From: Candidatus Didemnitutus sp.
GTDB lineage: Bacteria > Verrucomicrobiota > Verrucomicrobiia > Opitutales > Opitutaceae
Length of the DNA: 48,667 nucleotides
Direction of reading: 5' to 3'
NCBI GenBank assembly: GCA_023701285.1
Contig: JAMPXH010000017.1
Location: 1-48,667 of the forward strand
Positions within the stretch are counted from its first letter, which is position 1; each line of letters starts with the position of its first letter. The position numbers were made by a program, and so were the translations under genes. Positions 21,571 through 39,259 of the stretch are shown here, piece after piece. The notes beneath the pieces are model-generated. The model worked only from the letters and a program-made list of their open reading frames with translations, made no database searches and was not told the origin of the DNA.

Positions 21571-21669
21571 CGCGGCATGGAAGGCGTCCCGGGCGGGGCG
21601 TCAACTCAGACCGGCCGGCGAAGGCCGCGTTGCCGGCGCTGGGCGCGGAGCGCGGGGCCGCGCCCGGGC

Positions 21670-22171: not shown

Positions 22172-23479
22172 ATGCATCATTTCCACTACGTCGGTAACCA
22201 ACTGCACGCCGAGGGAGTCGACCTCGCCGCCGTCGCCCGCCTGCACGGCACGCCGACCTACGTCTACAGCGCGCAGACCATCGCGGACAACTACCGCCGC
22301 CTCGCCGCCAGCCTCGCCGGGCTCGATGTCCGCATCTGTTTCGCCTGCAAGGCCAACTCGAACCTCGCCGTGCTGCGCCACTTCGCGAACCTCGGCGCGG
22401 CCTTCGACCTCGTGAGCGGCGGCGAGCTGCGCCGCGTGCTCGCCGCGGGCGGCCGCGCGGAGGACAGCGTCTTCGCCGGCGTGGGCAAGACCGACGCCGA
22501 GATCCGCCTCGCCCTCGGGGCGGGCGTCTACGGCTTCCACGTCGAGAGCGAGCCCGAGCTCGAACGCATCAACCACCTCGCCGGCCAGCTGGGCAAAAAG
22601 GCCCCCATCGCCATCCGCATCAACCCGGACGTCGACGCCAAGACCCACGCCAAGATCACCACCGGCAAGAGCGAGAACAAGTTCGGCATCCCGCTGAAAT
22701 ACGCCGCCGCCGCCTACGCCGCGGCCGCGAAGTTGCCCCACATCGAGATCCGCGGCGTGCAGATGCACATCGGCTCACAGCTCACCAAGGTCGGCCCCTT
22801 CGTCGAGGCGGTCGAGAAGGTCCTCCCCTTCGTCGCGGAGCTCCAGCGCACCTACGGCATCCGGTATTTCAGCGTCGGTGGCGGCATCGGCATCGTCTAT
22901 CAGGATGCCCTTGCCAGTGGCCAACAGGCTTGGTGGGACGCCCAGCCCGAAGGCGAGCGTCCGCTCACCCCCGAGGCCTACGGCGCCGCGCTCACGCCGC
23001 TCCTCGCCCCGCTCGGCCTGAAGATCCTCCTCGAACCCGGCCGTTTCCTCGTCGGCAACGCCGGCGTGCTCCTCACGCGCGTCGAATACGTCAAGCGCGG
23101 CCACGGCAAGACCTTCGTCATCCTCGACGCCGCGATGAACGACCTCGCGCGCCCCGCGATGTATGACGCCTACCACGAATTCGTGCCCGTCGTGCGCGAG
23201 ACCGAGCGCCCCGCGCTCAAGGCCGACCTCGTCGGCCCGGTCTGCGAGAGCGGCGACTGTTTCGCGAAGGACCGCATGATCCAGGAAATCGGCGAGGGCG
23301 AACTCGGCGTTTTCATGAGCGCCGGCGCCTACGGCCACACCATGGCCAGCCGCTACAACACCCGCGCCCTCCCGGCCGAGGTGTTCGTCTCCGGCACCCG
23401 CTTCGAGGTGGTCAACGTGCGCGAGACCTTCGAAACGATGATTGCCGGCGAGAAGATTCCCGGCTTTCTGAAGGCCTGA
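22172..23479 (+). CDS. lysA: Diaminopimelate decarboxylase
   Basis: A 435-residue fold-III PLP enzyme that decarboxylates meso-diaminopimelate to lysine, the last step of the DAP pathway. The PLP-binding Lys is K60 in CFACKANSN. Other landmarks are VSGGELRRVLAAG, HIGSQLT, FSVGGGIGI, the phosphate-binding LEPGRFLVGNAG, and CESGDCF, which supplies the second-subunit catalytic Cys. The C-terminal MSAGAYGHTMASRYN is also typical. The ATG at 22172 starts the family's usual N-terminus (MHHFHYVGNQLHAEGV); the frame is open further upstream but is Arg-rich there. It is followed by gpsA after 78 nt on the same strand. Confidence 0.96.
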   Translation: MHHFHYVGNQLHAEGVDLAAVARLHGTPTYVYSAQTIADNYRRLAASLAGLDVRICFACKANSNLAVLRHFANLGAAFDLVSGGELRRVLAAGGRAEDSVFAGVGKTDAEIRLALGAGVYGFHVESEPELERINHLAGQLGKKAPIAIRINPDVDAKTHAKITTGKSENKFGIPLKYAAAAYAAAAKLPHIEIRGVQMHIGSQLTKVGPFVEAVEKVLPFVAELQRTYGIRYFSVGGGIGIVYQDALASGQQAWWDAQPEGERPLTPEAYGAALTPLLAPLGLKILLEPGRFLVGNAGVLLTRVEYVKRGHGKTFVILDAAMNDLARPAMYDAYHEFVPVVRETERPALKADLVGPVCESGDCFAKDRMIQEIGEGELGVFMSAGAYGHTMASRYNTRALPAEVFVSGTRFEVVNVRETFETMIAGEKIPGFLKA

Positions 23480-23557
23480 GCGCGGTCGGGTTTCCCGCCG
23501 CGTTCGGGTCGAGCCGCCCGCTGCGGTCCGGCCGCACCCCTCAACCCGTTTCCACCC

Positions 23558-24595
23558 GTGGCTGAAACGCCTCCCCTGCAGTTTGCCGTCATCGGCGCCG
23601 GTGCCTGGGGCACCGCCGTCGCCGCCCATCTCGCCCGCCGCGGCCACCCGGCCGCGCTCGTCGCGCGCCGCCCCGAACACGCCGCCGCCATCGCGGCCGC
23701 ACGCGAGAACCGCGACTACCTGCCCGGCATCCCGTTGCCGGAGACGCTCGCCGTCACGGCCGACCTCGGCGCGGCGTTGCGCGGGACCGACGTGGCCCTG
23801 ATCGCCAGCCCTTCGCACGCCCTGCGCGCGTGGTGCGGGCAGATGCGCGCCGTCCTGGGCGAGGCCGGCCGGCTCCAGCTTTTCATCAGCCTCGTCAAGG
23901 GCCTCGAAGTCGACACCCATTTCCGCGCCAGCGAGGTCATGGCGCAGGTGTTCCCGCAGGTGAACGTCGCCACGCTCACCGGCCCGACCAACGCCGCCGA
24001 GGTCGCCCGCGGCCTGCCCGCGGCGATGTTGCTCGCGGCGGCCCGGCCCGATGCCTGCGTCGGGCGCGTGCAGGCGGCGATGAGCGATTCCGCGCTGCGC
24101 ATCTACACCGGCGACGACCTGCCCGGTGCCGAATACGGCGCCTGCCTCAAGAACATCTACGCCATCGCCGCCGGCCTGTGCGACGGCCTCCGGCTCGGCG
24201 ACAACGCCCGCGCGGCGCTGCTCACGCGCGCCCTCACCTAGATGGTGCGCGTCGGCGAGGCGCTTGGCGCCAAGCGCGAGACGTTCTACGGCCTGAGCGG
24301 CTTCGGCGACCTCGTGGCCACCTGCCACGGCGCATGGAGCCGCAACCGCGAATTCGGCCAGCGCATCGGCGAGGGCGCCACCGTCGAGCAGCTCATGGCC
24401 GGCCGCAAAACTGTGGTCGAAGGCCACCGCACCGCCGACGCCTTCCACGGCCTGTGCCTGGAAAAAGGCATCGCGGCCCCGATCCTCGCCGAGATCCATG
24501 CCATCCTCTATGCGGGCAAGAAACCCGCCGATGCCCTGCGCGCGCTCATGACGCGCGAGCTCAAACCCGAGAGCGCCCGCCCGATGGCGTCTTGA
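23558..24595 (+). pseudogene. gpsA: Glycerol-3-phosphate dehydrogenase gene interrupted by an in-frame amber codon
   Basis: A GTG start at 23558 opens a 345-codon frame for NAD(P)-dependent glycerol-3-phosphate dehydrogenase, which makes sn-glycerol 3-phosphate for phospholipids. The N-terminal half has the dinucleotide motif VIGAGAWGTAVA and the catalytic Lys (about K198) in YGACLKNIYAIAAG. Codon 228 (24239-24241) is TAG. The next codon is ATG, and the same frame carries on to the normal end with ETFYGLSGFGDLVATC. Homologues usually have Glu or a similar residue here, so a single GAG-to-TAG change would explain it. If real, it yields a truncated 227-residue protein plus a 117-residue piece (24242-24595) that could be made by reinitiation. 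Alternatives are a sequencing error, amber suppression or a decaying gene with a paralogue elsewhere. Both halves look otherwise well conserved, which argues against long decay. Confidence 0.88.
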
Positions 24596-24666
24596 ACGCG
24601 GCCGAGGTCCGGCCGCCGGGTCGTTTTCGGGCTCGCGCCGTCCGCGCGTCCCGCTGTCTTGCCCTC

Positions 24667-25812
24667 ATGCGATTCCTGCTGGCGTTCGATAAATTCAAGG
24701 ATGCCCTCCCCGCGCCGGAAGCGTGTGCCGTCGCCGCGCAGGCGCTCGGACCGGGACAGGCGACCGAACTCTGCCCGCTGACCGACGGCGGCGAAGGTTT
24801 CTGCTCCATCCTCACGCGCGTCGTCGGCGGCGAACTCGTGACCTGCACGGTCACCGGGCCGCTCGGTGCGCCCGTCTCCGCGCATTACGGGCGGGTCGAC
24901 GTCGCGCAATTGCCTGCGGCGATCCGCACGCGTCTCGGACTCGAGGCGGGCGCGCGCCGCCTCGCGATCGTCGAGATGGCGCAGGCCAGCGGTCTCGCGC
25001 TTGTGCCGGCCGGCCGGCGCGATCCCTGGCAGACCACCTCGCGCGGCACCGGTGAGTTGATCGCCGCGGCAGCCGACGCGGGAGCGGACGCGATCCTTCT
25101 CGGTGTCGGCGGCAGCGCCACGCACGACGCCGGCCTCGGCGCGCTTACCGCCCTCGGGCTCGAGTGTCGGACGACAGACGGCGCGCGCCTCGATCCGCCC
25201 GTGCCCCAGACTTGGGCCGCGCTCGCGGCGGTCGCGGGCCAGCTTCGTCCGTTGCCGCCGCTCTTCGTCGCCTGCGACGTGACCAACCCGCTCATGGGCA
25301 CCTTCGGTGCCGCGTCGGTTTACGCTCCGCAAAAGGGCCTGCAGCCAGAGGACTTCACCCGCCTCGAATACATGACCGGCCGCATGGCAGCGCTGCTCTG
25401 CACGCACGCGAAGAAGCATCCGCTCCTCTGCGAGACGCCCGGCGCGGGCGCGGCCGGCGGCCTGGCCTTCGGTTTGCTGGCTGCGGCGGACGCCACGCTG
25501 GTGCCCGGCTTCGAACTCGTGGCGGAGTGGCTCGATCTCGACGCGAAGCTCGCGGCCTGCGACGTGGTGCTCACCGGCGAGGGGCGCTTCGACGCCAGTT
25601 CCCTGCAAGGCAAGGGGCCGGGCGCAGTCGTGCGGCGCGCCCTCGACCTCGGCAAGCCGGTGCACGTGTTCGCCGGGGCCGTGGATCTGCCGGAGCCGGT
25701 CGCGGCGTTGCGGAAGCATGCGCTCTCGCCCTCCGGCCTTCCGCTCGCCGAGGCGCTCGCCGCCACGCGCGCGCACCTGGCCGCCGCGGTGCGGGCGGAG
25801 TTCGGGCCTTGA
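24667..25812 (+). CDS. Glycerate kinase
   Basis: A 381-residue protein of the GlxK/GarK glycerate kinase family (PF02595), which phosphorylates glycerate to a phosphoglycerate that enters glycolysis. Recognisable parts are the N-terminal FDKFKDALPAPEA, the LTDGGEGF motif, GVGGSATHDAGLG in the middle, PGAGAAGGLAFGL and the ligand region TGEGRFDASSLQGKGP. The length is normal. The ATG at 24667 starts this conserved N-terminus. It follows gpsA after 71 nt and precedes the IMPase-like gene by 12 nt, so the latter two are probably co-transcribed. Whether 2- or 3-phosphoglycerate is made is not evident from the sequence. Confidence 0.93.
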   Translation: MRFLLAFDKFKDALPAPEACAVAAQALGPGQATELCPLTDGGEGFCSILTRVVGGELVTCTVTGPLGAPVSAHYGRVDVAQLPAAIRTRLGLEAGARRLAIVEMAQASGLALVPAGRRDPWQTTSRGTGELIAAAADAGADAILLGVGGSATHDAGLGALTALGLECRTTDGARLDPPVPQTWAALAAVAGQLRPLPPLFVACDVTNPLMGTFGAASVYAPQKGLQPEDFTRLEYMTGRMAALLCTHAKKHPLLCETPGAGAAGGLAFGLLAAADATLVPGFELVAEWLDLDAKLAACDVVLTGEGRFDASSLQGKGPGAVVRRALDLGKPVHVFAGAVDLPEPVAALRKHALSPSGLPLAEALAATRAHLAAAVRAEFGP

Positions 25813-25824
25813 ACCCTGTTGCCG

Positions 25825-26817
25825 ATGTCGCCCGAGCATTTTCGCCGTCTGTTGTGTGCTTTGCAGGAGGAGATCCGCGAGGCGGTGCTCGGCTCGCGCC
25901 GGAAACGCGCGTCCCGCCTCCGCCGCATCGCGAAGGTCACGGCGGCGGACACGATCTACGGCATCGATGCGGTGGTGGAGCCGGTGATCCTCGCGTGGCT
26001 GGCCCGGCATTGGCCGGCGAGCGAGCCGGTGGAGCTGGTGATGGAAGGCTTGGAGGAGTGGGGCGCGGTGACCTTCCCGCGCGGCATGCCGGTGCGGGCG
26101 ACGCAGTGGAAACTGATTCTCGATCCGATCGACGGCACGCGCGGCCTGATGCACGACAAGCGCAGCGCGTGGACGCTCGCCGGCCTCGCGCCGCAACGCG
26201 GTCCTCGCACCGACGTCAGCCACATCACGGTCGCTGCAATGACCGAGCTGACGACGAGCAAGGCCGGTTTTGCCGACCAGTTCAGCGCCGTGCGCGGCGG
26301 CGGGCTGCGTGCCACGCGGTTCGACCTGCGCACGGGAAGTCGGCGCGCTTTCCGACCGCAGCCCTCGCGCGCGACCACGCTGGCGCATGGCTTCGGCGCC
26401 TTCGCCAAGTTCCTGCCCGAGGGCAAGGCATGGCTGGCGGAACGTGAGGAGCGGCTTTGGCGTGAGCTCGGCCTCACCGGTGCCAGCGGCGGCGAGCCGG
26501 TTTTCGACGACCAGTATATCAGCACCGGCGGGCAGCTCGGCGAACTCATCCTCGGGCACGACCGTTTCATCGCCGACGTGCGCCCGGTGGCCTTCGCGCG
26601 GCTGGGCTTGGGCGCCGGCGCGTCGCTCGCGTGTCATCCCTACGACATCTGCACGCTGTTGGTCGCGGAGGAGGCGGGTTGCGTCGTGCGCGATGCCGAT
26701 GGCCGGCGGTTGCGGGCGCCGCTCGACACGACCACCGCGGTGGCGTGGGTCGGCTACGCCAACCGCGCGCTCGCGCGCCGGATCGCCCCGGTGTTGCGCC
26801 GCGTGCTCGCCGGCTGA
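25825..26817 (+). CDS. Inositol-monophosphatase-like phosphatase
   Basis: A 330-residue protein of the IMPase/FBPase metal-dependent phosphatase fold. The key metal-binding motif DPIDGTRG is at about residue 102. An acidic motif upstream (VMEGLEEWG) stands where the family usually has GEE-type residues, and the C-terminal HPYDICTLLVAEEAGCVV matches the WD-x-AAG-type end. It is longer than typical IMPase (about 265 residues), with an insertion around AFRPQPSRAT. Substrates could be inositol phosphates, 3'-phosphoadenosine 5'-phosphate or sugar phosphates. I chose ATG 25825 over a TTG two codons upstream. It is probably co-transcribed with the glycerate kinase. Confidence 0.8.
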   Translation: MSPEHFRRLLCALQEEIREAVLGSRRKRASRLRRIAKVTAADTIYGIDAVVEPVILAWLARHWPASEPVELVMEGLEEWGAVTFPRGMPVRATQWKLILDPIDGTRGLMHDKRSAWTLAGLAPQRGPRTDVSHITVAAMTELTTSKAGFADQFSAVRGGGLRATRFDLRTGSRRAFRPQPSRATTLAHGFGAFAKFLPEGKAWLAEREERLWRELGLTGASGGEPVFDDQYISTGGQLGELILGHDRFIADVRPVAFARLGLGAGASLACHPYDICTLLVAEEAGCVVRDADGRRLRAPLDTTTAVAWVGYANRALARRIAPVLRRVLAG

Positions 26818-26824
26818 GGGGCGC

Positions 26825-26852
26825 AAAAAAGCGGCGTCGGAGTGACGCCGCT
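26825..26852 (-). terminator. Terminator of the minus-strand lipoprotein gene
   Basis: AGCGGCGTC (26830-26838) pairs with GACGCCGCT (26844-26852) around GGAGT. On the minus strand it is followed by a T-run (26825-26830). It lies about 28 nt past the lipoprotein stop codon and may also help end the convergent transcript. Confidence 0.85.
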
Positions 26853-26879
26853 GCGAAAGAGTGCGAAACGGAGCGAGGC

Positions 26880-27335
26880 TCAGCCCTTCGATTGCTCGAT
26901 CACGGTCACCTTGCCGTTCTCGAAGGTGATGCGGATGCGCTCCTCGACTTCGGGACGGTAGGTGTCGGCGTAGACCGGGTGATAGTGGAAGCGGTAGGTC
27001 TTCAGCACGGGGTCCCAGTAGACGCGGCGCGCGTAGCCCGCGAAGCGGGTGCCGTCGTAGCGTTCGTAGTAGGTGTTGTAGATCCACACGGTCTGGGCGC
27101 CGGCGGCGCTGCGGGACTCGCGCTTCTGGTCGGGGGCGCCGAGGGCGAGGTAGACGGCGTCCTCGCTGTAGCCGAGGTCGATGATGCCCTGTTTCACCTT
27201 GGCCTGGGTCTCGGCGTCGAGGTTGGCGAAGACCTCGGGCTTTTCCTTGATGCGGGTTTCCACGGTCTGGCAACCGGCGGCAAACAGCAGCGTGGTGGCC
27301 GCGGCGGCAAGCAGGAGGAATCGGGTGGGTTTCAT
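26880..27335 (-). CDS. BamE/SmpA-like lipoprotein
   Basis: A 151-residue lipoprotein: signal peptide MKPTRFLLLAAAATTLLFAAGC with Cys22 in an AAGC lipobox. The body (LGYSEDAVYLALGAPDQKRE, then TVWIYN, then ITFENGKVTVIEQ) has the alpha-alpha-beta-beta-beta pattern of the BamE/SmpA/OmlA fold, in which a short helix pair precedes a sheet that reads out a gene-product/formula-like string. BamE itself helps the outer-membrane assembly machine; many small lipoproteins share the fold without that function. A His/Tyr-rich middle (YRFHYHPVYADTYRPEVE) is unusual. It lies next to copA on the same strand, separated by 75 nt. Its own role is unknown. Confidence 0.72.
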   Translation of the reverse strand: MKPTRFLLLAAAATTLLFAAGCQTVETRIKEKPEVFANLDAETQAKVKQGIIDLGYSEDAVYLALGAPDQKRESRSAAGAQTVWIYNTYYERYDGTRFAGYARRVYWDPVLKTYRFHYHPVYADTYRPEVEERIRITFENGKVTVIEQSKG

Positions 27336-27410
27336 GATGGGAGGGAAGACGCCCGGAATCCTACTCAGGTTCCACGGAATCTCCAGCTTGGCGAAGGGCG
27401 GCGGGGCAGG

Positions 27411-29471
27411 TCAGAGCCGGAGGCGGCGCAGCCGCAGGGCGTTGGCGACGACGGTGAGGGAGCTGAGGCTCATGGCGACGCCGGCGAACATCGGGTTGAG
27501 CAGCCAGCCGAAGACGGGGAAGAGCGCGCCGGCGGCGAGGGGCAGGCCGAGGCCGTTGTAGAAGAACGCCCAGAAGAGGTTCTGCTTGATGTTGCGGAAC
27601 ACGCCGCGGCTGAGGTGCACGGCGCGCACCAAGGCTTGCAGGTCGCCTTTCACGAGCACGAGGCCGGCGCTGTGCATGGCCACGTCCGTGCCCGTGCCCA
27701 TCGCGATGCCGGTGTCGGCGGCGGCGAGGGCGGGCGCGTCGTTGAGGCCGTCGCCGGCGAAGGCGACCTTGGCGCCGCGGGCCTGGTGCTCGCGGACGAG
27801 CTCCTGCTTGCGTGCGGGTGTCACTTCGGCGTGGAAACCATCGAGTCCGAGCTGATCCGCCACGGCCTGCGCGGACGCCTGGCGGTCGCCCGTGACCATG
27901 AACACCCGCAGGCCGAGCCGCTGCAATTCGCGGATGGCGGCGGGCGTGGTGGGCTTCACCGGATCGGCGAGCGCGATCAGCCCGGCGGCCTGGCCGTCGA
28001 CCGTCACGGCGGCGAGCGTGGCGGTGGGATGCTCCGGAAAAACGGTGTCCGTCGCGGCGCGACCGACTTGCACGGCGCGTCCCTCGACGCGCGCCGTGAC
28101 GCCGGCGCCGGCCTGTGCGGCGAAGCCCTCGGCGGCGGCGAGCGGGAGCCCGCGGGCCTGCGCCGCGGCGACGATGGCGCGGGCGAGCGGGTGTTCGCTG
28201 GGCGATTCGGCGGAGGCGGCGAGGCGGAGCAACTCGTCCTCGGTCAGCGCCGAGCCGGGCAGCGCGCGGACCGCCACGACGACGGGTCGCCCGGCGGTGA
28301 GCGTGCCGGTCTTGTCGATCAGCAGCGTGTTCGCGTGGGTGAGCGCTTCGAGGGCGCCGGCGTCCTTCACGAGCACGCCGGCCTGGGCGCCGCGGCCGAT
28401 GCCGGTGACGAGCGATACGGGCGTGGCGAGGCCGAGCGCGCAGGGGCAGGCGATGATGAGCACGGAGACGGCGTTGATCAGCCCGTAAAGCCAGCCGCGC
28501 TCGGCGGCGAGCAGCGTCCAGGCGACGAACGAGGTCGCCGCGATCGCGAGCACGACGGGGAAGAACCACGCGGAGACGCGATCGGCAAGGCGCGCGATGG
28601 GCGGCTCGCTCTCGACGGCCTGCTCGACGAGGCGGACGATCTGCGCGAGCAGCGTGTCGGCGCCGACGCGCTCGGCGCGGTAGATGAACGAGCCCGTGGT
28701 GTTGAGCGTGCCGGCGCTGATCTTTTCGCCGGCCTGCTTGGCGACGGGCAACGGCTCGCCGGTGAGCATGGATTCATCGATCTCGGCGGGGCCGGTCGTG
28801 AGCACGCCGTCGACCGGGAGGTGCTCACCGGGCCGCACGCGCAGCCGGTCGCCCGGTTGCACGGCGTCGACCGGCACGTCGCTCTCGCGGTCGTCGGCGT
28901 CGAGGCGGTGGGCGATCTTCGGGGCGAGGTCCATCAGCGCCCGGATGGCGGCGTCGGTGCGCGCGTGGGCGCGCTGCTCGATGATCTGGCCGAGGAGCAC
29001 GACGGTGGTGATGAACGCCGTGCCCTCGAAGTAGAGCGCGGCGCCGTGGTGCGAGAAGAGGTGCGGCGGCACGTGGTCCCAGAACAGCACGACGGCCGCG
29101 CTGTAGAAATACGCGGCGCCCGTGCCGGTGACCGTGAGCGTGAACATGTTGGGGTCGCGTTCGCGGAGCGATTTCCACCAGCGGCGGAGGAAGGGCGCGC
29201 CGCTCCAGAAGAACACGGGCGTGGTCAACCCGAGTTGGAGCCACGCGGATTCGCGCATCGTCAGGTAGTCGTAGAGGCCGTGCGAGATCATCGGCCACAT
29301 CGCGAGCACGAGGACGGGGAGCGTCAGCACGACGGCGACCCGGAAACGCGGGCGCAGAAAGCTCTCGTGCGGCAGGCCCATGTAAACGGGCTCGTCGGGA
29401 CGCGGCGCGGCGGTGGCGTGCGAAGGCGATTCCGCAGTCGCGGTGTGACAGGAAGGAGGCGGGGAGTGCAT
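27411..29471 (-). CDS. copA: Cu+-type P1B ATPase
   Basis: A 686-residue heavy-metal-transporting P-type ATPase. Visible are the CPC metal site in IACPCALGL, the phosphorylation motif DKTGT (Asp about residue 386), the actuator TGE in SMLTGEP, the SEHPLA motif and the hinge GDGLNDAPA. The last two helices carry KQNLFWAFFYN and MSLSSLTVVANALRLRR, the P1B-1 pattern for Cu+/Ag+. The N-terminus has no HMA domain, only a loose Cys/His/Met-containing stretch. It pumps Cu+ out of the cytoplasm into the periplasm, where the CusCBA-like pump at 32.4-39.2 kb could take over. A 46-codon leader frame ends in TGATG at its start, and an ECF-type promoter matching that of the efflux operon lies upstream (29634-29659). 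Confidence 0.93.
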   Translation of the reverse strand: MHSPPPSCHTATAESPSHATAAPRPDEPVYMGLPHESFLRPRFRVAVVLTLPVLVLAMWPMISHGLYDYLTMRESAWLQLGLTTPVFFWSGAPFLRRWWKSLRERDPNMFTLTVTGTGAAYFYSAAVVLFWDHVPPHLFSHHGAALYFEGTAFITTVVLLGQIIEQRAHARTDAAIRALMDLAPKIAHRLDADDRESDVPVDAVQPGDRLRVRPGEHLPVDGVLTTGPAEIDESMLTGEPLPVAKQAGEKISAGTLNTTGSFIYRAERVGADTLLAQIVRLVEQAVESEPPIARLADRVSAWFFPVVLAIAATSFVAWTLLAAERGWLYGLINAVSVLIIACPCALGLATPVSLVTGIGRGAQAGVLVKDAGALEALTHANTLLIDKTGTLTAGRPVVVAVRALPGSALTEDELLRLAASAESPSEHPLARAIVAAAQARGLPLAAAEGFAAQAGAGVTARVEGRAVQVGRAATDTVFPEHPTATLAAVTVDGQAAGLIALADPVKPTTPAAIRELQRLGLRVFMVTGDRQASAQAVADQLGLDGFHAEVTPARKQELVREHQARGAKVAFAGDGLNDAPALAAADTGIAMGTGTDVAMHSAGLVLVKGDLQALVRAVHLSRGVFRNIKQNLFWAFFYNGLGLPLAAGALFPVFGWLLNPMFAGVAMSLSSLTVVANALRLRRLRL

Positions 29472-29611
29472 CACGGGAGGAGTCCGGGTTGGGCCGGCCG
29501 GCGCGGAACGGAGGCGTCCGAACGCCGGGCAGCGTGGCGCAGAAAGGCCGGGAAGGCCAGCGCGCGCAGGGCGGCGCTGGGCGAGGTGAAGCGGGTGAGA
29601 TCGGGTGGCAT
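29471..29611 (-). CDS. Possible 46-codon leader peptide of copA
   Basis: The minus-strand ATG at 29611 opens a 46-codon frame whose TGA stop overlaps the ATG of copA (TGATG), the classic layout of translational coupling. The peptide begins MPPDLTRFTSPSAALRALAF and ends in a Pro/Arg-rich stretch (PRRPAQPGLLP). It has no Cys, Met cluster or His that would bind metal. The proposed ECF promoter ends only about 23 nt upstream, so this frame would be at the very 5' end of the copA transcript. Short GC-rich frames arise by chance, so confidence is low to moderate. Confidence 0.4.
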   Translation of the reverse strand: MPPDLTRFTSPSAALRALAFPAFLRHAARRSDASVPRRPAQPGLLP

Positions 29612-29633
29612 GGGAGCGGTGGTTTGCCGGGGA

Positions 29634-29659
29634 GACGGAGCTCGCGGCGAAATCTTACG
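29634..29659 (-). promoter_or_regulatory. ECF-type promoter upstream of copA
   Basis: On the minus strand: CGTAAG (29659-29654), a 16-nt spacer starting ATTT, then CGTC (29637-29634) inside TCCGTCTCC. The layout and the GTAAGATTT core match the promoter of the efflux operon at 31998-32023, with the same spacer length. Confidence 0.65.
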
Positions 29660-29798
29660 CGGCAGCGAAGAAAATCTCGCGCCGGAGCGCCGCCGCCGCC
29701 GCGTGCGGCGTAGGCTGCCGCCGGGGCACGGGGGATGATTACGCCCGCGGACGCTTGGGATGGACGTTGCGGGCCGCTTGGCCTGATAACGCTAGCGC

Positions 29799-31325
29799 AT
29801 GAACGACCACCGTCCTCCCTCTTCGCCCCGGCCGCGCCGGGCGCGGTGGCTCGGGGTGTTCGCGCTGGGGTCGGTCGTTGCGCTCGCCGCGTTCGCCGCG
29901 CCGCCGCCAGCGCCGCAGACGCTGATCGCGATCTCCGGCGACGGGAGCCTCACGCTGCGTTGGGAAGCCGTGCCGGGTGCGACGAGTTACACGGTGGGCC
30001 GGCGCACGAGCGCCACGAGCGGCAATTACACGACGGTCGCCACGGGTCTCACGGCGAGCACGCACACGGACACGGGACGCACGAATGGCACGCCGTATTA
30101 CTACATCGTCACCGCGACCGGGCCCGACGGCACCAGCGGTCCGTCCAACCAGGCGCGCGGCACGCCCGTGGCGGCGCTGTCGCCGGGCACCGACGTGCGC
30201 TGGCCGCTGGCGAACAGCACGGCTGCGGACGCCGACGTGATCCGCTACGCCTTCGGCCCGCGCAACATCGGGCGCTACGATTTCCATGCCGGGCTCGATC
30301 TCAACGCCGTGCAGGGCACGCCCGTCCACGCCGTCATGGCCGGCACGGTGACGAATCGCATCGAGTGGGACGGCGTGACCACCGGCAGCGGCAATAACCT
30401 CCTCGTGAGCCACGGCTCCGGGCGCTGGACCGCTTACCTGCACCTGCACGGGTTCGCCGCCGGCATCGGGATCGGCAGCGCGGTCTCCGCGGGACAGGTC
30501 ATCGGCTACGTGGGCAAGACCGGCGCGACGTCGAATCACCTGCACTTCACCTATTTCGTCGGCCTCACTTCCGAGGCGAGCAATGAGATGCGCAGCCGCT
30601 CCCCGCTGGAGTTGTTGCCGCGCACGACGGGCGTGGGCGCGGAGGCCGTGTTCAGCACGAACGGGAGCCGCACTGTGGATATCCTCATCCCCGCGCAACA
30701 AAACACGATCCGCTGGATCATCCTGCGCGGTGCGGGCGTCACGCGGCTCGTGGATTACTACGACATCGTCGGCCAGGGCTCCACGCTGCGGGACAATCCC
30801 AAGCAATCCGGCCTCGTCATCCAGGTGGCCGCGCCGACGATTCCCTATCCCGGTGGCGGAGGCACGGTGCAACTCGTCGTGGCGCCCGACCCCGACGCGC
30901 CGTGGGGCGACTTCGATCCCACGCGCATCACGGTGCTGGATTTCCACGGCAACATCCTGGTCGATCGCACGGCCTACGAATCCTGGAAATTCACCCACGG
31001 GCTCACGCTCGATGCGGCTGACGATTCCGATGCGGACGCCGATGGCCTGCCGCTCCTCGTGGAATACGCGCTCGACCTCGATCCGCACATGGCGACGTGG
31101 GTGGGCGCACCGCAGCTCGTGCACACCGACGCCGATCGCGTGGAGTTCACCTATCGGCGCAAGCGGCCGGAGCTGACCTACACGGTCGAGGCCTCGGCGG
31201 ATCTGGTGAACTGGAGTGCAGCGGGTGTGACGCAGGAGTTTGCCGTCACGGGCGATCAAGTCACCGCAGCGACCACGCTCGATGCGGCCGGGAGGAAATT
31301 CCTGCGGCTCGCGGTCACGCGTTGA
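29799..31325 (+). CDS. Secreted M23 metallopeptidase with fibronectin III domain and C-terminal module
   Basis: A 508-residue exported protein: signal peptide (about 15-35), a fibronectin type III-like domain (about 37-125) and a LytM/M23 peptidase domain (about 130-275). Zinc-site motifs are FHAGLD (H163 and D167) and HLHF (H247 and H249). A linker domain and an Asp-rich DDSDADADGLP stretch, which looks Ca-binding, follow. The C-terminal module (about 415-508) is shared with the nuclease at 2173. M23 enzymes cut peptidoglycan cross-bridges or glycine-rich peptides; all ligands are present, so it should be active. It is divergent from copA and not obviously part of the metal system. The HxxxD site and length fit the family. 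Confidence 0.9.
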   Translation: MNDHRPPSSPRPRRARWLGVFALGSVVALAAFAAPPPAPQTLIAISGDGSLTLRWEAVPGATSYTVGRRTSATSGNYTTVATGLTASTHTDTGRTNGTPYYYIVTATGPDGTSGPSNQARGTPVAALSPGTDVRWPLANSTAADADVIRYAFGPRNIGRYDFHAGLDLNAVQGTPVHAVMAGTVTNRIEWDGVTTGSGNNLLVSHGSGRWTAYLHLHGFAAGIGIGSAVSAGQVIGYVGKTGATSNHLHFTYFVGLTSEASNEMRSRSPLELLPRTTGVGAEAVFSTNGSRTVDILIPAQQNTIRWIILRGAGVTRLVDYYDIVGQGSTLRDNPKQSGLVIQVAAPTIPYPGGGGTVQLVVAPDPDAPWGDFDPTRITVLDFHGNILVDRTAYESWKFTHGLTLDAADDSDADADGLPLLVEYALDLDPHMATWVGAPQLVHTDADRVEFTYRRKRPELTYTVEASADLVNWSAAGVTQEFAVTGDQVTAATTLDAAGRKFLRLAVTR

Positions 31326-31376
31326 AATCAGTGCGAGGCGAAGCCCAGCGTGCCGGGGAAAGTTATTTCCGCTCGA

Positions 31377-31964
31377 TCATCCCGCGGGCGGGGGCAAAGG
31401 GGGCGCGTCGGGTGGGGCGCAGTCGCAATCCAGGCATGCGCTGTCGGCGCAGTTGCCGCAGAAGGCCTTGAGGCGCGCCTTCAGGTCCTTGCGGGCGCGG
31501 TGCAACGTGACGCTGGCGTTGTTGGGCGTCAGGCCGAGGGCGCGCGCGACGTCCTGCACGGATTCGCCGTTCAGGTCGACGCGCCGCAACAGTTCCGCAT
31601 GCGCGGGCTTGAGCGTGTCGACCACGCCGCCGAGGCAGGAGCAGAGTTTCGCCTCGAAGGCGCGGGCCGTGGTCACGTCCTGTTCCAGCGCGGTGACGAG
31701 CGTGCCGAGCGCGTCGTCGCGTCGTGCGGCGGCGCCACGGGCGCGGTAGTGGTCGGTGACGGCGTGGCGAAGCAACTGGTAGAACCACGCGGTGAGTTTG
31801 TCGTCGTCGCGCAGCTCACCTGCGTGCTGCAGGGCCTTCACCAGGCCGTTTTGCAGGATGTCCTCCGCATCGGCCTCATTGCCGACGCGAGCCGCGAGGA
31901 AGGCCTTGAATGCCCCTCGTTGGGCGTTCAAGGCGGCGACCAAGGCGGCAGGGTTGGTGGACAT
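31377..31964 (-). CDS. ECF sigma factor with Cys-rich C-terminus (CorE-like)
   Basis: A 195-residue ECF sigma factor. Region 2 is at about 10-85 (ARVGNEADAEDILQNGLVKA, then WFYQLLRHAVTDHYR). Region 4 is at about 105-165 (LNGESVQDVARALGLTPNNA, then VTLHRARKDLK). Beyond it is a Cys-rich tail: C169, C172, C177, C180 and C182 in the pattern C-x2-C-x4-C-x2-C-x-C. This tail is the hallmark of CorE-like sigma factors, which in Myxococcus sense copper or cadmium directly, with no anti-sigma factor. None is encoded next to it here. It is divergent from the cus-type operon with an 85-nt spacer and is proposed to drive both metal loci. I used the ATG at 31964 because upstream residues are not sigma-like. 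Confidence 0.9.
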   Translation of the reverse strand: MSTNPAALVAALNAQRGAFKAFLAARVGNEADAEDILQNGLVKALQHAGELRDDDKLTAWFYQLLRHAVTDHYRARGAAARRDDALGTLVTALEQDVTTARAFEAKLCSCLGGVVDTLKPAHAELLRRVDLNGESVQDVARALGLTPNNASVTLHRARKDLKARLKAFCGNCADSACLDCDCAPPDAPPLPPPAG

Positions 31965-31997
31965 GGCCGGATGATACGCCACGCGGGCGATATTTCC

Positions 31998-32023
31998 TGT
32001 AAGATTTTGCAAGGGATTCCGTC
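31998..32023 (+). promoter_or_regulatory. ECF-type promoter of the copper efflux operon
   Basis: TGTAAG (31998-32003), a 16-nt spacer starting ATTT, then CGTC (32020-32023). It ends 26 nt upstream of the ATG at 32050. TGTAA(C) with CGTC at this distance is a known ECF promoter type. The GTAAGATTT core and TCCGTC-CC block recur upstream of copA, supporting control by the adjacent sigma factor. Confidence 0.7.
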
Positions 32024-32049
32024 CCCATCGGCATATTACCCAAGCCATC

Positions 32050-32409
32050 ATGAAAATGCCCCCCATCCTCGCTCTCCTCGCCGCCCTCGTGGCGTTCGTT
32101 TCCACCGCCTTTGCCGCCGCCCCCAAGGGTGAGTTGGTCAAGATCACCGACAAGGAGGCCGCTTGGGCCGCCGCGGCCAGCAAGAACTACCCCTTGGACG
32201 TCTGCGTCGGCTCCGGCGAAAAGCTCGGCAGCATGGGCGACGCCACCGAGTGGATCTACCGCGCCGAGGGTCAGGCCGATCGCCTCGTGAAGTTTTGCTG
32301 CGACGGTTGCATCGACACCTTCATGGAGAACCCGGCCGAGCACCTCGCCAAGATCGACGCCGCGCAGAAGAAGGCCGACAAGGCCGGCCACTCCGCCCAC
32401 AAACACTGA
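32050..32409 (+). CDS. Periplasmic Cys-rich YHS/TRASH-like protein
   Basis: A 119-residue exported protein: signal peptide (about 1-23, FVSTAFAAAP), then a small domain with PLDVCVGSGEKLGSMGD and VKFCCDGCIDTFMENPAEH. The C-terminal tail is rich in His and Lys (HSAHKH). The paired Cys, and the F-C-C-x-G-C motif, match a conserved protein type found with heavy-metal efflux genes in related bacteria and resembling TRASH/YHS metal-binding domains. It is the first gene of the operon, so it should be made in the largest amount, as expected for a periplasmic metal-binding chaperone or sensor. Metal binding has not been shown for it. It is followed by the TolC-like gene after 33 nt. Confidence 0.8.
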   Translation: MKMPPILALLAALVAFVSTAFAAAPKGELVKITDKEAAWAAAASKNYPLDVCVGSGEKLGSMGDATEWIYRAEGQADRLVKFCCDGCIDTFMENPAEHLAKIDAAQKKADKAGHSAHKH

Positions 32410-32442
32410 CGCCTGCGCCTCGTCTCGCCTTCTGCCACCACC

Positions 32443-33699
32443 ATGACGTCGCGTTTGTTCGTCCTCCTTCTGACCGCCGTGTCCTTGGTCGCGGTCCCGC
32501 TCCGTGCCGATCCGGCCGCGAAGGATGCCGCGCGCGCGGAATTTTTGCGCGTCGTGGCGGGCGCGCCCGCCTTGCAGGCGGCGGCGCGGCGGGTCGACGC
32601 CGCGCAGCAGCGCACCGGCGCCGCCGGCCTGCTGCCCGACCCCGAGGTCGAGGGCATGGTCTCGCGGATGAACGGCGCGATGGGCGAGCGCAACGACATG
32701 TATGAGGTGAATGTCCGCCAGCCCTTGCCGCGGCGTGGGGAACTCGCCGCCCAGCGCGAACGCGCCCGCGCTGCGGTCGCGATGGCCGAGGCGGATCACG
32801 CGATGATGGCCGGCGAACTCGCCGCCGAGACCGCGATGGCGCTTGCGGAGGCGGAAGGCGCCGCCGCGCGCCTCGTCTGCGTCAGTCGCCAGGCCGATCG
32901 TCTTGAATCCGTCCTGCGCAGCCTTGATGCGCGCCTCGCCACCACAACGGGCGGAATGGGCGGCGCGCGCCTCGCCGACCGGCTCACGGTGCAGACCCGC
33001 CTCGCCGCGATGCGCCTGATGCTTGAGAACGACCAACGCATGGCTGACGACGCGCTCGCCGAGGCCCGCGGCCGGCTCGGACTCGCGCCGGACGCAGCTT
33101 TGCCCGCCTTCGTCGCCCCCGATATCGGTGCGATCGATCCCGCGACGTCGCCCGCCGTGCTCGCTGCCGCCGCGCGCACGGCCGAGGCCGACGCCATGGC
33201 CGGCATGGCCAAGGCCGCGGCGCGCCCGATGGCCGCCGTCGGTCTCCGCTACGAACGCGAGCGCACCGCGATGGGCAATGACAACACCGTTGGGCTCGCG
33301 CTCATGTCCGATTTTCCCTGGCGCAGCCGCCGCGCCTCGCGCGCCGAATTGGAGGCGGCCTCCGCCGAGCGCGCCGCCGCGCAGGCCGACGCCTCGTCTG
33401 CCACTTATCGCATCCGCGCCGCCGTCGCGCGTGCCGAGCGCGCCTCGCGCCTCGCGGAATCCTCGCGGCGCGTCAGCGCAGACACGCTCGCACGCCTTGA
33501 GGCCGAGCTCGGCGCTTTCCTCCGCGCCGCCAGCGCGGGCAATCCCGGCGATTCCACCGTTCTCATGACAGTCGAGCTGCTCGAAAAGGCGACCGACGCC
33601 GAACTTCAGGTCGTCGCCGCCGAGCAGGCCGAGCGCACTGCCCGCGCCGAGCTCTGGCGCTATGCGCCCGCCGCGCAATTTTCCGCGTCCGCGCGTTGA
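32443..33699 (+). CDS. cusC: TolC-family outer-membrane channel (CusC-like)
   Basis: A 418-residue protein with a signal peptide (about 1-22) and long, Ala/Glu/Arg-rich amphipathic helices in two repeats. This is the coiled-coil pattern of TolC/CusC outer-membrane efflux proteins. The start of the mature part (RRVDAAQQRTGAAGLLPDPE) is typical. It would form the exit duct for the CusBA pump encoded downstream. It is second in the operon and sits 34 nt before the next gene. The subfamily is assigned by genome context. Confidence 0.86.
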   Translation: MTSRLFVLLLTAVSLVAVPLRADPAAKDAARAEFLRVVAGAPALQAAARRVDAAQQRTGAAGLLPDPEVEGMVSRMNGAMGERNDMYEVNVRQPLPRRGELAAQRERARAAVAMAEADHAMMAGELAAETAMALAEAEGAAARLVCVSRQADRLESVLRSLDARLATTTGGMGGARLADRLTVQTRLAAMRLMLENDQRMADDALAEARGRLGLAPDAALPAFVAPDIGAIDPATSPAVLAAAARTAEADAMAGMAKAAARPMAAVGLRYERERTAMGNDNTVGLALMSDFPWRSRRASRAELEAASAERAAAQADASSATYRIRAAVARAERASRLAESSRRVSADTLARLEAELGAFLRAASAGNPGDSTVLMTVELLEKATDAELQVVAAEQAERTARAELWRYAPAAQFSASAR

Positions 33700-33733
33700 A
33701 AGATTCATCGTTCATCTCCGTCTCCTCTTCACC

Positions 33734-34144
33734 ATGACCCGCAGTCTCTTCATCTTCCTCGGCACCTTCGCCGTCGGTGCGTTCGTCGCGCTGGTCGCCC
33801 GCGCCGCGTTCTTCGAGCCGCACTCCGCCCGTGAGGCCAACGCCGTCGGTGGCGGCGACTACGCTCCGATGGTGACCAACACGCTCGCGCCGCGCGACGG
33901 CGCGACTGCCGGCGCACCCGCGTCGTCCGCCGTGGCCACCGGCGCCTCCGTCGCGAGCGCCGACGGCAAGCCCGTCAACACTGTCTGCGCCATCTGCGGC
34001 ATGGACGTCGACCCGAAGATCCCGACCGCGACCTACCAGGGGAAAACCATCGGCTTCGGCTGCAAGATGTGCCCGCCGAAGTTTGCCAAGGACCCCGATC
34101 GTTGGGGCCCGCTCTATCTCAAAAACGAAGTCGTCAAACGCTGA
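33734..34144 (+). CDS. Membrane-anchored protein with YHS/TRASH-like metal domain
   Basis: A 136-residue protein with a TM anchor or signal at the N-terminus (about 4-25), a Ser/Ala/Thr linker, and a C-terminal domain with two CxxC-type pairs: CAICGMDVDPKIPT and FGCKMCPPKFAKDPDRW. This resembles YHS/TRASH domains that bind soft metals. Being tethered on the periplasmic side, it could deliver metal to CusB or hold it. It overlaps nothing but lies just 5 nt before cusB, so the two are tightly coupled. The same operon also has a free periplasmic relative at 32050. Confidence 0.78.
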   Translation: MTRSLFIFLGTFAVGAFVALVARAAFFEPHSAREANAVGGGDYAPMVTNTLAPRDGATAGAPASSAVATGASVASADGKPVNTVCAICGMDVDPKIPTATYQGKTIGFGCKMCPPKFAKDPDRWGPLYLKNEVVKR

Positions 34145-34149
34145 CCGCC

Positions 34150-35478
34150 ATGCGCCTGCCTCCCACTCCTCTCGTTGCGCTGGCCGGTCTGTTGCTCGGC
34201 GCCGGGGTCGTCGCCCTGTTGCCCGCGCACACGCTCTTCCATGTCGAGGCGGCGCACGACGATGCCGGCACCGCGACCGGCGAGCGCTATGCCTGCCCGA
34301 TGATGGACTTCATCGGCAACAAGCCCGGTCCGTGCCCGGTGTGCGGCATGGACATGACCAAAGTCACCGCCGGCGAACTCACGCGCGAACAACAGCGCCG
34401 CATGGGTGTGCAGCTCGCCACCATTTCCGCCGGTCCGGCCACTGTCACCGTGCGCGCGTTCGGCACGGCAGATTACGACAACCGTCACACGGCCGTCATC
34501 ATCCCGCGCGTTGCGGGCCGGATCGTGAAACGCTACATGGCGACGTGGGGTTGCTGCGAAGTGGTCGGCCAGGGAGCGCCGATCATCGATCTCTACAGCC
34601 CCGAGGTGTTCGCCGCCCAAGGCGAATTGCTCGCGGCGCGACAGCTCGGGGACGCCGCCGCCGCCGAGGCGATCAAGCAGCGCTTCGTGCGCTGGAATCT
34701 CACCGAGGTGGCCGATGCCGTCCTCGACGGCAAGCCGCCGACCGACACGGTCACGATCCGCTCGCCGGTCAAGGGGCAGGTGATGATGCGCGAATTCGAG
34801 CAGGTGAATTCCATGCTGGAGATCGGCAAGGAGATCATGGCCGACACGCCGCTCCTCACCATCGTCGATCCCGACCGCCTGACCGTCGTCGTGCAGGTGC
34901 CGGAGCTGCAGGCCAATTTCCTCCGCGAAGGCCAGCGCGTCCTGATCGCCACGGACGATCGCGGCGAGTTGCCCGGGGTTGAGGCGAAGATCGACCGGCT
35001 CGGCCGGGAAATCTCCGCCGACATCCGTTCGCGCGAAGTGCGCATCTACCTGACCGGCGCCAGTGCGTTCATCCAGCCCGGCTCGCTCGTCGCGGCCCGC
35101 ATCCAGGGCGTGCTCGATCAAGATCTCCGTCCCGCCGATCCGGCCGCTCCGGACTCGTGGGGCCGCTTCACGCTCATCCCGAAGACCGCGGTCCTCTCGA
35201 CCGGTGTGCGCAACGTTGCGTGGCGCCTCGCCGAACGGACGAGCGACGGCCGCGCGCGGTTCGAACTCACGCCGCTCGCGCTCGGGCCGCGAATCGAGGA
35301 CGTGCACGGCAACGATGTCTACGTCGTGCGCGCCGGCTTGAAGCCCGGCGACGAGGTCGCCGCGCAAGGTGCCTTCCTCATCGACAGCCAGGCGCAGCTC
35401 GCGGGCACGCCGAGCCTGATTTTCCCGCAGGGCGCGCTCGCGCCGGCGCCGACGGCGTCGGACGGCCACCAGCACTGA
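34150..35478 (+). CDS. cusB: RND efflux adaptor (CusB-like) with heavy-metal-binding domain
   Basis: A 442-residue periplasmic adaptor. An N-terminal anchor or signal (about 6-27) is followed by a heavy-metal-binding domain (about 47-72) with YACPMMD and CPVCGMDMTK. Next is the HlyD/CusB-type barrel-sandwich and beta-barrel region: IIPRVAGRIVKRYMATWG, IRSPVKGQVMMREF, and VPELQANFLREGQRV, and the C-terminal membrane-proximal domain. The end is His-rich (GHQH). It links CusA to the TolC-like channel and, in the Cus system, helps hand periplasmic Cu+/Ag+ to the pump. The ATG at 34150 starts the membrane helix, 5 nt after the previous gene. Confidence 0.93.
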   Translation: MRLPPTPLVALAGLLLGAGVVALLPAHTLFHVEAAHDDAGTATGERYACPMMDFIGNKPGPCPVCGMDMTKVTAGELTREQQRRMGVQLATISAGPATVTVRAFGTADYDNRHTAVIIPRVAGRIVKRYMATWGCCEVVGQGAPIIDLYSPEVFAAQGELLAARQLGDAAAAEAIKQRFVRWNLTEVADAVLDGKPPTDTVTIRSPVKGQVMMREFEQVNSMLEIGKEIMADTPLLTIVDPDRLTVVVQVPELQANFLREGQRVLIATDDRGELPGVEAKIDRLGREISADIRSREVRIYLTGASAFIQPGSLVAARIQGVLDQDLRPADPAAPDSWGRFTLIPKTAVLSTGVRNVAWRLAERTSDGRARFELTPLALGPRIEDVHGNDVYVVRAGLKPGDEVAAQGAFLIDSQAQLAGTPSLIFPQGALAPAPTASDGHQH

Positions 35479-35494
35479 ACAAGGCGCGCCTGCG

Positions 35495-38400
35495 ATGCTC
35501 TCCTTCGTTATCCGCAATACCTTCCTCACCCTCGCCGTCGCGCTCGGTCTCGCCGCGGCTGGCGTCTGGGGTTGGCGCAACGTGCCGGTCGATGCCATTC
35601 CCGACCTGAGCGACAACCAGGTCATCGTCTGGGCCGAGTGGCCGGGCAAGAGCCCGCAGGACATGGACCAGCAGGTCACGTCTCGGCTGGCGCGCGAGCT
35701 CCAGGGATTGCCCGGCGTCGAGACGGTGCGCGGCATGTCTCTCTACGGCGCGAGTTACCTCTACGTCATCTTCGAGGAGCGCCGCGATCTCTACGAAAGC
35801 CGCACGCGCGTGCTCGAGCGGCTCGCTCAGGTGCAGGGCTTGCTGCCGGCCGGGGTCAACCCGCGCCTCGGGCCGGATGCGACCGCGATGGGGCAGATCT
35901 ACGCCTTCACGCTGCAGGGGCCGCGCAGCGTCGAGGAAAAGCGCTACGTGCTCGACCAGATCGTCGTGCCAGCCTTGCGCGCCGTCCCCGGCGTGTCCGA
36001 GGTCGCGCCCGCCGGCGGCGTCGTGCGCGAATATCAGATCGAAGTCGACCCGCTGCGTCTCGCGCAGCAGGGCGTCACACTTGAGATGCTGATGATGGCC
36101 GTGCAGAACGCCGGTCGCGACGTCGGCGCCATGAGCGTCGAGCAGAGCGGCGTCGAGACGATGATCCGCGGCGTCGGTTTCATCCGCTCCGTCGAGGACG
36201 TGGAGAATGTCGTTATCCGTGGCGATCGCATGAAGGGCGCAGGCCTGCGCCTTGGCGACATCGCGCAGGTGCAGCTCGGCGGCCAGTTCCGCCAAGGAAT
36301 GCTCGCGGATGGCTATCAGGAGCATGTCGGCGCCATCATCGGGATGCGCGTGCAGGAGGATCCGATGACGGTGATCGATGCCGTCAAACGCCGCCTCATG
36401 GACCTGCAGCCCGCCCTCGCGCGTGAGGAATTGGCGGCGGCGGCGTTCTACGATCGCTCGCAACTCATCCGCGAGACGACCGAGACCGTCACTGACACGC
36501 TGCAGGAAGCGGTCATCACGACGGTGATCGTCGTTGTGGCGTTCCTGCTCCACGTGCGCGCGAGCCTCGCCGTCGCGATCAGCCTGCCGCTCGGAATGCT
36601 GTTCACGTTCTTCGTGATGCGCCTCACGGGGGTCGGCGCCAACATCATGAGCCTCGCCGGCATCGCGATCGCGATCGGTGTCATGGTGGATTTCGGCATC
36701 ATCATGACCGAAAACATCACGCAGCACCTCGTCGACCTGCAGGAGAAATGCAAACGCGAGGGCCGCGCGATGCCGACCTCGCCGTTCAACGAGGAGATCA
36801 CCGCCACGGTCGTGCGTGCCGCGGAGGAGGTCGCGCGCCCGCTGCTCACGTCGGCCGCGACGACGATCATCGGATTCCTTCCCATCTTCGCCCTCACCGA
36901 TCAGGCGGGACGGCTGTTCGAGCCGCTGGCGTTGACGAAATCGCTCGCGATCAGCGGTGCGGTGCTCTTCGGCACGCTGCTCGTGCCCACGCTCTGCCGC
37001 CTGCTGTTGCCGCCTTGGCATGTGCGCAAGCCGCTGCTCGTTGTCCTTGCCGGACTCGCGGCCGGTGCGGCGTTCGGGTGGTTCATCCGCGACGGCTGGA
37101 CGCTGCCGCTCGAATACGGTCGGTGGTCGCTCTCGGTGCCGGGCTGGTTGTTCGCGCCGCTCTTCGCCGCGCTCGTCGGCTCGGCAGTGTGGCGACTCGG
37201 GCGCGAGAAGCTCGTCAATTACGAGGAGAACCCGATGAGCCATGCGATCCACGTGGCTTACGAATGGGCCTTTGCCCGCATCCTGCGGCACAAGATCGCC
37301 TTTACCACAACGATCGCGGCGATGGCGCTCGGCGGCTATCTGCTCGGTGCCGGCTGGACGACGCTGAGCTGGCCCTTGCGCAAGGTCTTCGAGCTCGCCG
37401 GCGCGGATCTCTCGCGCACGACGCTCGATCAGGCGATGACGCGTGCTTTCCCGGGCGTCGGCTCGAGTTTCCTGCCTCCGCTCGATGAAGGCAGCCTGCT
37501 CTTCATGCCCTCACTCCCCGCCACGGGCGGACTCGGCGAGACGCAGCGCGTGATGATGATGCAGAATCGCCTCATCGAATCCGTGCCGGAGGTTGCCAAC
37601 GTCATGGGCAAGCTCGGCCGCGCCGAGACCGCGCTCGATCCCGCACCGCTCGGCATGATCGAGACCGTCGTGCTGTTGAAACCCTACGCCGAGTGGCCGG
37701 TGCATGAATTCACGCGCGCCGATGGCACGGTCGAGAAGCGTCCGCGCACGCTCGCCGAGGTTCGCGCCGCGCTCGCCGCGATCAGCGACATCCCCGGCGT
37801 GGCGCCGAGCTGGCTGCAGCCGATCGAGACCCGCGTCGTCATGCTTTCCACCGGCATCCGCAGCCTCATCGCTTTGCAGGTGCTGGGCGACGATAGCGAG
37901 GAGTTGGAGCGTTTCGCCGAGGCGGCGGAGAAAATCATCCAGCCCACGCCCGGCGCCGTCGACGTGCAGATGCAGCGCGAGGGCGGCAAGCCCTATGCCG
38001 AGATCCGGCTCGATCCGGCGAAGGTCGCGCGTTTCGGTCTGACGAACGAGCAGGTCATGCGCGCCGTCGAAACCGCACTTGGCGGCATGGCGATCACTTA
38101 CTCCGTCGAAGGTGCCCTGCGCTACCCGGTGCGCATCCGCTACGCCCGGGAACTGCGCGACGACCCCGACGAACTCCTGCAACTCCAGGTGCCCCCCGCG
38201 GCTGGCCAGATGGGCGCGGTGCCGCTGACCAACCTCCTCGCGCTGCCCACGGTGCATGTGCTGGAGCTCGGCCCCGATGCGCCCGAAGCCGCTGAATTGC
38301 TCGGCAAACTCCCGCTCGCGCATCAGCGCAACCTCACGATCCTCACGCCGCGACGCGTTGAGTTGACCGTTGCCGCCGGCGACGCGTTGCCCGCGGCGAT

Positions 38401-39235: not shown

Positions 39236-39239
39236 CGCC

Positions 39240-39259
39240 GGGTCGGTTGAAACCGACCC
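39240..39259. terminator. Hairpin between convergent cusA and EamA genes
   Basis: GGGTCGGT and ACCGACCC pair around a TGAA loop in the 23-nt gap between the two convergent stop codons, overlapping the EamA-gene stop codon. It has no U-tract, so it is probably a bidirectional roadblock. Confidence 0.5.

Follow-up and report, generated by a model that had tools for sequence, protein, structure and literature searches.

Matching ECF-type promoters probably place copA and a cus-type operon under one CorE-like sigma factor in an Opitutaceae genome

The closest described system is that of CorE in Myxococcus xanthus, an ECF sigma factor with a C-terminal Cys-rich domain and no linked anti-sigma factor (PMC3107203). 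CorE controls the P1B ATPase gene copB and, less clearly by the authors' own caution, copA; its targets include the multicopper oxidase gene cuoB, and a site is predicted before an outer-membrane efflux gene (PMC3107203). Copper activation depends mainly on C189, a residue shared by 11 of the 21 sigma factors compared, and cadmium and zinc weakly induce the CorE-dependent cuoB (PMC3107203). A CxC motif and the Cys-rich domain are the marks of CorE-like sigma factors, the former ECF44, and CorE itself is unclassified in the newer ECF scheme; a second factor, CorE2, responds to Cd and Zn, and the distribution of cysteines in the tail sets the metal (PMC8999054). As a criterion of the CorE-like class, DNA binding depends on copper, and the factor is activated by Cu(II) but inactivated by Cu(I). 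According to a 2021 review, CorE and CorE2 of M. xanthus are the only metal-responsive ECF238 members studied experimentally (PMC8103513). Within the Opitutaceae, Oter_1731 of Opitutus terrae PB90-1, of the same class as the sigma factor described below, was listed as CorE-like in 2011, and the available text of that article gives no promoter or regulon for it (PMC3107203). Our comparison draws on excerpts of four articles (PMC3107203, PMC8999054, PMC10141476, PMC8103513).

Literature searches listed no paper that treats this regulon in the Opitutaceae, apart from the 2011 article that lists the sigma factor. Escherichia coli has the same two pumps as the locus studied here, copA and cusCFBA, with CueR regulating the former and CusRS the latter; there two separate regulators are used, whereas a single sigma factor is predicted for both in our locus. 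Another metal, iron, is reportedly sensed by the sigma factor OrbS, described in a 2022 paper. CorE control of copper ATPases in Myxococcus and a CorE-like sigma factor in Opitutus are therefore known in outline; new here are the predicted Opitutaceae promoter code, a third site, an apparent exchange of the sigma and cus genes, and Cys-rich microproteins that appear to be under the same promoter in relatives.

The copper locus and its sigma factor

The window is the whole stretch of DNA that was analysed, 48,667 nucleotides long. The original prediction placed two ECF-like sites with a common spacer in it, one before each of two copper-transport loci, with a sigma gene between them. Both sites proved exact to the base in position, strand and spacer, and both loci are of the predicted kind. 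The prediction missed a third site, however, and did not mention that an M23 peptidase gene separates the first site from the sigma gene. The features are as follows.

27411-29474 (-): copA, P1B-type metal ATPase, 687 aa; start GTG 29474 or ATG 29471; CPC, YN and MSLSS motifs
29471-29611 (-): 46-aa open reading frame 3' of PcopA, with a stop that shares bases with the copA ATG (TGATG)
29634-29659 (-): PcopA, predicted ECF-type promoter CGTAAG-N16-CGTC before the 46-aa frame and copA; 1 mismatch to the consensus
29799-31325 (+): M23 peptidase gene (PF01551), between PcopA and the sigma gene
31377-31964 (-): CorE-like ECF sigma factor, 195 aa; PF04542 (Sigma70_r2) and PF08281 (r4_2) above cut-off
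31998-32023 (+): Pcus1, predicted ECF-type promoter TGTAAG-N16-CGTC before the small Cys protein and OEP genes; 1 mismatch
32050-32409 (+): small Cys protein, encoded first in the cus operon; by eye its start resembles a signal peptide, and its likeness to YHS is weak
32443-33699 (+): outer-membrane efflux protein (OEP) in the CusC position (PF02321)
33697-33725 (+): Pcus2, predicted third site TGAAAGATT-N11-TCCGTCTCC between the OEP and YHS genes, before YHS-cusB-cusA; 1 mismatch
33734-34144 (+): YHS-like small protein; PF04945 at 22.3 bits, below the cut-off of 30.3
34150-35478 (+): CusB-type adaptor with heavy-metal-binding domain; PF16576 and PF19335 above cut-off
35495-39235 (+): CusA-type RND pump; TIGR00914 at 718.9 bits, cut-off 701.45

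Every sequence mark tested assigns the gene at 31377-31964 to the CorE-like sigma factors (former ECF44, now within ECF238), in agreement with its earlier reading as an ECF sigma gene with a Cys-rich tail. The CxC linker, C108-S-C110, lies between sigma2 and sigma4, and the C-terminal domain holds C169, C172, C177, C180 and C182, spaced as C181/184/189/192/194 of CorE. Four of them (C169, C172, C180 and C182) match the four invariant cysteines of CorE-like factors (CorE 181/184/192/194) and C177 stands at the offset of C189, the copper-type cysteine; the sixth CorE cysteine, C206, differs in having no counterpart. All seven cysteine columns hold without exception in an alignment of 38 proteins, the window's and 37 others, drawn from 39 loci of which one (L077) has no usable sigma translation; the seven columns are still present in L060, L061 and L066, where the internal spacing differs. 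Identity with SigZ was rejected, since the protein fails both NCBIfam equivalog cut-offs (95 bits versus 212, and 92.4 versus 168.65).

Profile scans of eight neighbouring proteins (26880-39235), two of which have no Pfam match of any kind, gave no match to an anti-sigma family. A structure model of the sigma factor (pLDDT 59.9) was too poor for placing the cysteines or judging contact between the CxC motif and the Cys-rich domain. The sigma gene is transcribed away from cus and shows no motif of its own, and a sigma-70 and terminator scan around it returned no promoter for it; in several relatives it lies 3' of cusA on the same strand.

The ATPase scores 553.6 bits against the copper profile TIGR01511 (cut-off 397) and, under this, 402.8 bits against the cadmium profile TIGR01512 (cut-off 313.5); we take its CPC, YN and MSLSS motifs to be of the Cu(I) type. 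CusA has methionine at all three positions aligned to E. coli CusA 573, 623 and 672 (our own count, chain numbers less 7), presumably the Cu/Ag methionine triad. Small proteins resembling the first product of the cus operon are encoded directly 3' of such a site in three other loci (L045, L058 and L085). On this evidence, the M23 peptidase gene lies outside the regulon. The 46-aa frame, of doubtful coding status, differs from its Didemnitutus copy by 4/4/7 changes at the three codon positions; having no cysteines and no clear codon bias, it is probably no remnant of a Cys-rich microprotein. At the gathering threshold, Rfam models matched only tRNA in the whole window; tRNA-Pro (tgg) lies at 6556-6632 (+), far from the copper locus.

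Pcus1 runs on the plus strand from 31998, TGTAAG ATTTTGCAAGGGATTC CGTC, to 32023, and PcopA on the minus strand from 29659, CGTAAG ATTTCGCCGCGAGCTC CGTC, to 29634, with equal 16-base spacers. The string GTAAGATTT occurs exactly twice in the window when both strands are searched, and the family consensus of the element is TGTAAGATT-N11-TCCGTCTCC. Like the CorE regulon, the locus combines an ECF sigma factor bearing a C-terminal Cys-rich domain, no anti-sigma gene recognised alongside and a P1B ATPase as the likely target, and the AAC-to-G distance of 16-18 in the M. xanthus sites compares with 17 in the window. It differs in that the -35 element is found through AAC in those sites and AAG in the window (GTAAC occurs beside three of four plasmid relatives), and in that cuoB is among the M. 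xanthus targets, as against a whole cus-type operon here.

Rarity of the element and its association with the sigma gene

The genome searched comprises 4.02 Mb in 220 contigs and is 95% complete, and a further site may sit in the missing part. In it, GTAAG-N16-CGTC has eight matches, compared with 19 for the reversed control, and significance of this short core alone was rejected. Two of the eight are PcopA and Pcus1; each of the other six lies within stop-free frames of at least 100 codons, which is weak evidence in GC-rich DNA. Because the short core is not rare, the longer element was tested. At up to three mismatches, TGTAAGATT-N11-TCCGTCTCC matches the genome three times, always in the window and with one mismatch each, and the reversed control gives none; 400 simulated windows contained no match at up to one mismatch and a mean of 0.0125 at up to three. 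The original claim that such a match is unlikely by chance thus holds for the long consensus, found nowhere else in this genome, and fails for the short core.

We also scored the window with a PWM built from 46 instances in relatives' loci, from which the window and its nearest relative were excluded, as were L049 and one L051 match (2852 +). Among 97,262 window positions, PcopA ranked first (37.9 bits), Pcus1 second (28.5) and Pcus2 third (25.0), with the fourth at 9.1 bits. The site list behind the matrix was chosen in sigma loci with the core of the original prediction, and leave-one-out scoring is a partial remedy for this. Pcus2 is the weakest of the three sites, because its -35 core is GAAAG instead of GTAAG and no site of at least 12 bits precedes YHS in 22 other loci of the same cus type (one of which ends before that place).

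To get a family-wide perspective, we examined 200 Opitutaceae genomes, of which 34, counting the window's own, have the sigma factor (E<=1e-30). The strict pattern GTAAGATT-N11-TCCGTC is present in 17 of these 34 and in 5 of the 166 others (Fisher 2e-11; the latter include seven genomes whose sigma matches were weak, 6e-19 to 3e-16), and its reversed control is absent throughout. It is missing from half of the sigma genomes, in many of which looser forms precede copA. Three of the five matches in genomes without the sigma factor stand before small-OEP, cusB or copA-type genes (G191, G068 and G109), and the other two (G070 and G038) have nothing recognisable downstream. A count of GTAAG-Nk-CGTC over 38 relatives' loci (690 kb) gave 48 matches for k=16 and 0-4 for each other k between 5 and 30.

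The association is closest at copA. With leave-one-out matrices and a threshold of at least 15 bits, a site lies within 1.2 kb upstream of 31 of 32 copA-type genes in sigma loci, the window included, versus 1 of 51 copA orthologues in genomes without the sigma factor (Fisher 1.7e-20). We skipped copA matches that lacked the N terminus, scored low or had less than 150 bases upstream; 2 of the 53 control loci were too short. These controls, 13 of 30 from one locus set plus 40 more, were hand-picked at about 60% identity or more, are a subset of such genes, and come from genomes with no sigma match at E<=1e-30, two with weak matches (G013 and G170) among them. The one exception, G168, has a 22.9-bit site before copA and no detected sigma gene; the next control, G146, reaches 14.4. 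In several loci other genes intervene between site and copA, with gaps of up to 1,115 bases. Where a copA-type gene comes directly next (20 hand-tallied cases, the window and loci with another gene first excluded), the element lies 8-26 bases before the start codon, and in 15 of the 20 (L040-L077) the start is 8-11 bases after CGTC, so that transcripts would be leaderless or nearly so if the promoter reading holds.

At cus the association is looser. A site precedes the CusB-type gene in 7 of 16 sigma loci with the window and 6 of 15 without it, compared with 49 of 2000 random 700-base stretches (p 9e-7; 2,500 bases upstream were searched in the window and 600 in other loci). In the remaining 9 of these 15 relatives the testable CusB-type gene lacks such a site, and the cus link is therefore frequent and not universal, while the copA link is nearly so. 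In G003 the sigma gene and copA are present with a site 9 bases before the copA ATG, and the 20 kb examined contained no match to a cus gene. The proposed copA-cus link thus recurs in relatives, in a minority of those in which it could be examined, and the proposal of one sigma factor and one regulon for both pumps gains support from the copA and strict-pattern comparisons and the fixed 16-base spacer.

From these comparisons, we consider it very probable that a CorE-like copper sigma factor drives copA and cus through matching promoters. The sigma factor would read these sites itself, with copper as the signal and no anti-sigma factor involved. Through copper bound by the Cys-rich tail, acting with the CxC linker, the sigma factor would be able to keep RNA polymerase at TGTAAGATT-N11-TCCGTCTCC promoters, which in this genome would be PcopA, Pcus1 and Pcus2. 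Since these three share one promoter form, a single sigma factor would raise both CopA, the inner-membrane pump, and the CusCBA-type trans-envelope pump with its two small Cys/YHS proteins.

Chance resemblance among two or three unrelated sequences, in favour of which stand the eight genome matches of the short core, fewer than the 19 of its reverse, is scarcely credible given the drop from 25.0 to 9.1 bits after the third PWM rank, the confinement of the three consensus sites to the window, and the simulations; conservation before copA in relatives contradicts it already. Copper operons often use CueR, CsoR or CusR sites, and the shared element could in principle bind a copper repressor or activator instead of being a promoter. 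The element is directional and non-palindromic with a fixed 16-base spacer, however, lies within 26 bases of the start codon in the tallied cases and tracks the sigma gene, all of which make such a site highly improbable. Opitutaceae bacteria have several ECF sigma factors, any of which might read the sites, leaving the adjoining CorE-like gene incidental. Against this, the motif tracks the CorE-like gene in the 200-genome comparison and hardly ever precedes copA where that gene is missing, and in G133, where the neighbouring sigma gene is a remnant, Pcus1 has degenerated and the copA site is kept, with a second sigma factor of this type in the genome; we regard reading by another factor as improbable.

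A different signal is the alternative with most to be said for it, though still rather unlikely: the sites would be ECF promoters of this very sigma factor, responding to another metal, such as Zn or Cd as for CorE2, or to several metals. The response of CorE2 to Cd and Zn, the role of the tail cysteines in setting the metal (PMC8999054) and the weak induction of cuoB by the same two metals (PMC3107203) agree with it, as does the ATPase being above the cadmium-family cut-off. On the other hand, the window sigma factor has the counterpart of the copper-type C189, the ATPase scores higher as a copper type, and CusA keeps all three methionines, which favours copper as the signal.

Natural variants and Cys-rich microproteins

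The closest named relative of the window is a Candidatus Didemnitutus MAG (L009), family Opitutaceae. It is 91% identical over 21413-31936, and 93% identity resumes after 39321; between 31936 and 39321 there is no blastn match above 100 bits. Identity is thus lost sharply over 31325-39321 between well-conserved flanks: in 60-base bins, values of 81-98% predominate as far as the M23 gene end, and values from 31320 on are 53-83%. The relative has cus genes of another type, which share a strand with its sigma gene and copA, as opposed to the reverse orientation in the window, and no site was found before its cusB. At PcopA, 52 bases from GTAAG onward are identical, and the bases just upstream differ (76% in the bin immediately upstream). 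Because identity falls over sigma-cus between conserved flanks while the PcopA core is unchanged, a sigma-cus cassette was likely exchanged between the two around an unchanged copA promoter; no donor was identified.

A second variant is G133, which has the gene order of the window. Its syntenic sigma gene is a 46-aa remnant (L136 5709-5849 (-)) in which loss of the sigma domains has fused the protein start in frame with the Cys-rich tail. Pcus1 is degenerate there (15.9 bits), the copA site is intact (34.7), and the second sigma factor of the same type is encoded on another contig.

Eleven loci (L040, L041, L042, L043, L045, L046, L047, L048, L050, L055 and L136) encode Cys-rich microproteins of 51-63 aa with the approximate pattern CGCxxCxCxxGPRCRCHxxNALLALAxWDFGR. 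One member tested has no Pfam or NCBIfam match, and by their look only they are metallothionein-like. In 10 of the 11 loci the ATG lies 23-26 bases after the CGTC of a predicted CorE-type promoter. Twelve of the 200 family genomes have the microprotein, all 12 with the sigma factor; 11 copies adjoin the sigma gene, and that of G133 adjoins copA on the contig of the sigma remnant. In the window's own genome a search for the microprotein gave no match at E<=0.001. At L060 9388-9555 (+), a different Cys-rich peptide of 56 aa, without Pfam or NCBIfam match, follows the same promoter type.

Taken together, the variants raise a broader reading, for which we see the balance as even: in Opitutaceae the sigma gene and the trans-envelope pump may form an exchangeable cassette on a fixed promoter code, with pump, microprotein buffer and sensor as one copper module. 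From the 34 sigma genomes of the sample a promoter code can be derived, making targets predictable, and the family offers natural variants for sigma recognition in GTAAG versus GTAAC, a deleted sigma factor with a decayed promoter, and a seemingly swapped sigma factor over an unchanged promoter.

Sites of related form also occur beyond the family. Six Verrucomicrobiota loci outside it were examined over 3.5 kb each; no site was seen in three, a likely TGTAAGA-N-GCGTTT is present in two and TGTAAT in another. Plasmid relatives of the sigma factor in Roseobacter litoralis, Candidatus Manganitrophus, Sulfitobacter faviae and Roseovarius indicus all have the CxC linker and Cys-rich tail, and an annotated copper ATPase is present in the examined stretch of three of the four, the exception being Sulfitobacter. 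Within 240 bases after these sigma genes we found TGTAAC-N16-CGTC in three and TGTAAT-N16-CGTC in Roseovarius; the changes at -35 and -10 look lineage-specific.
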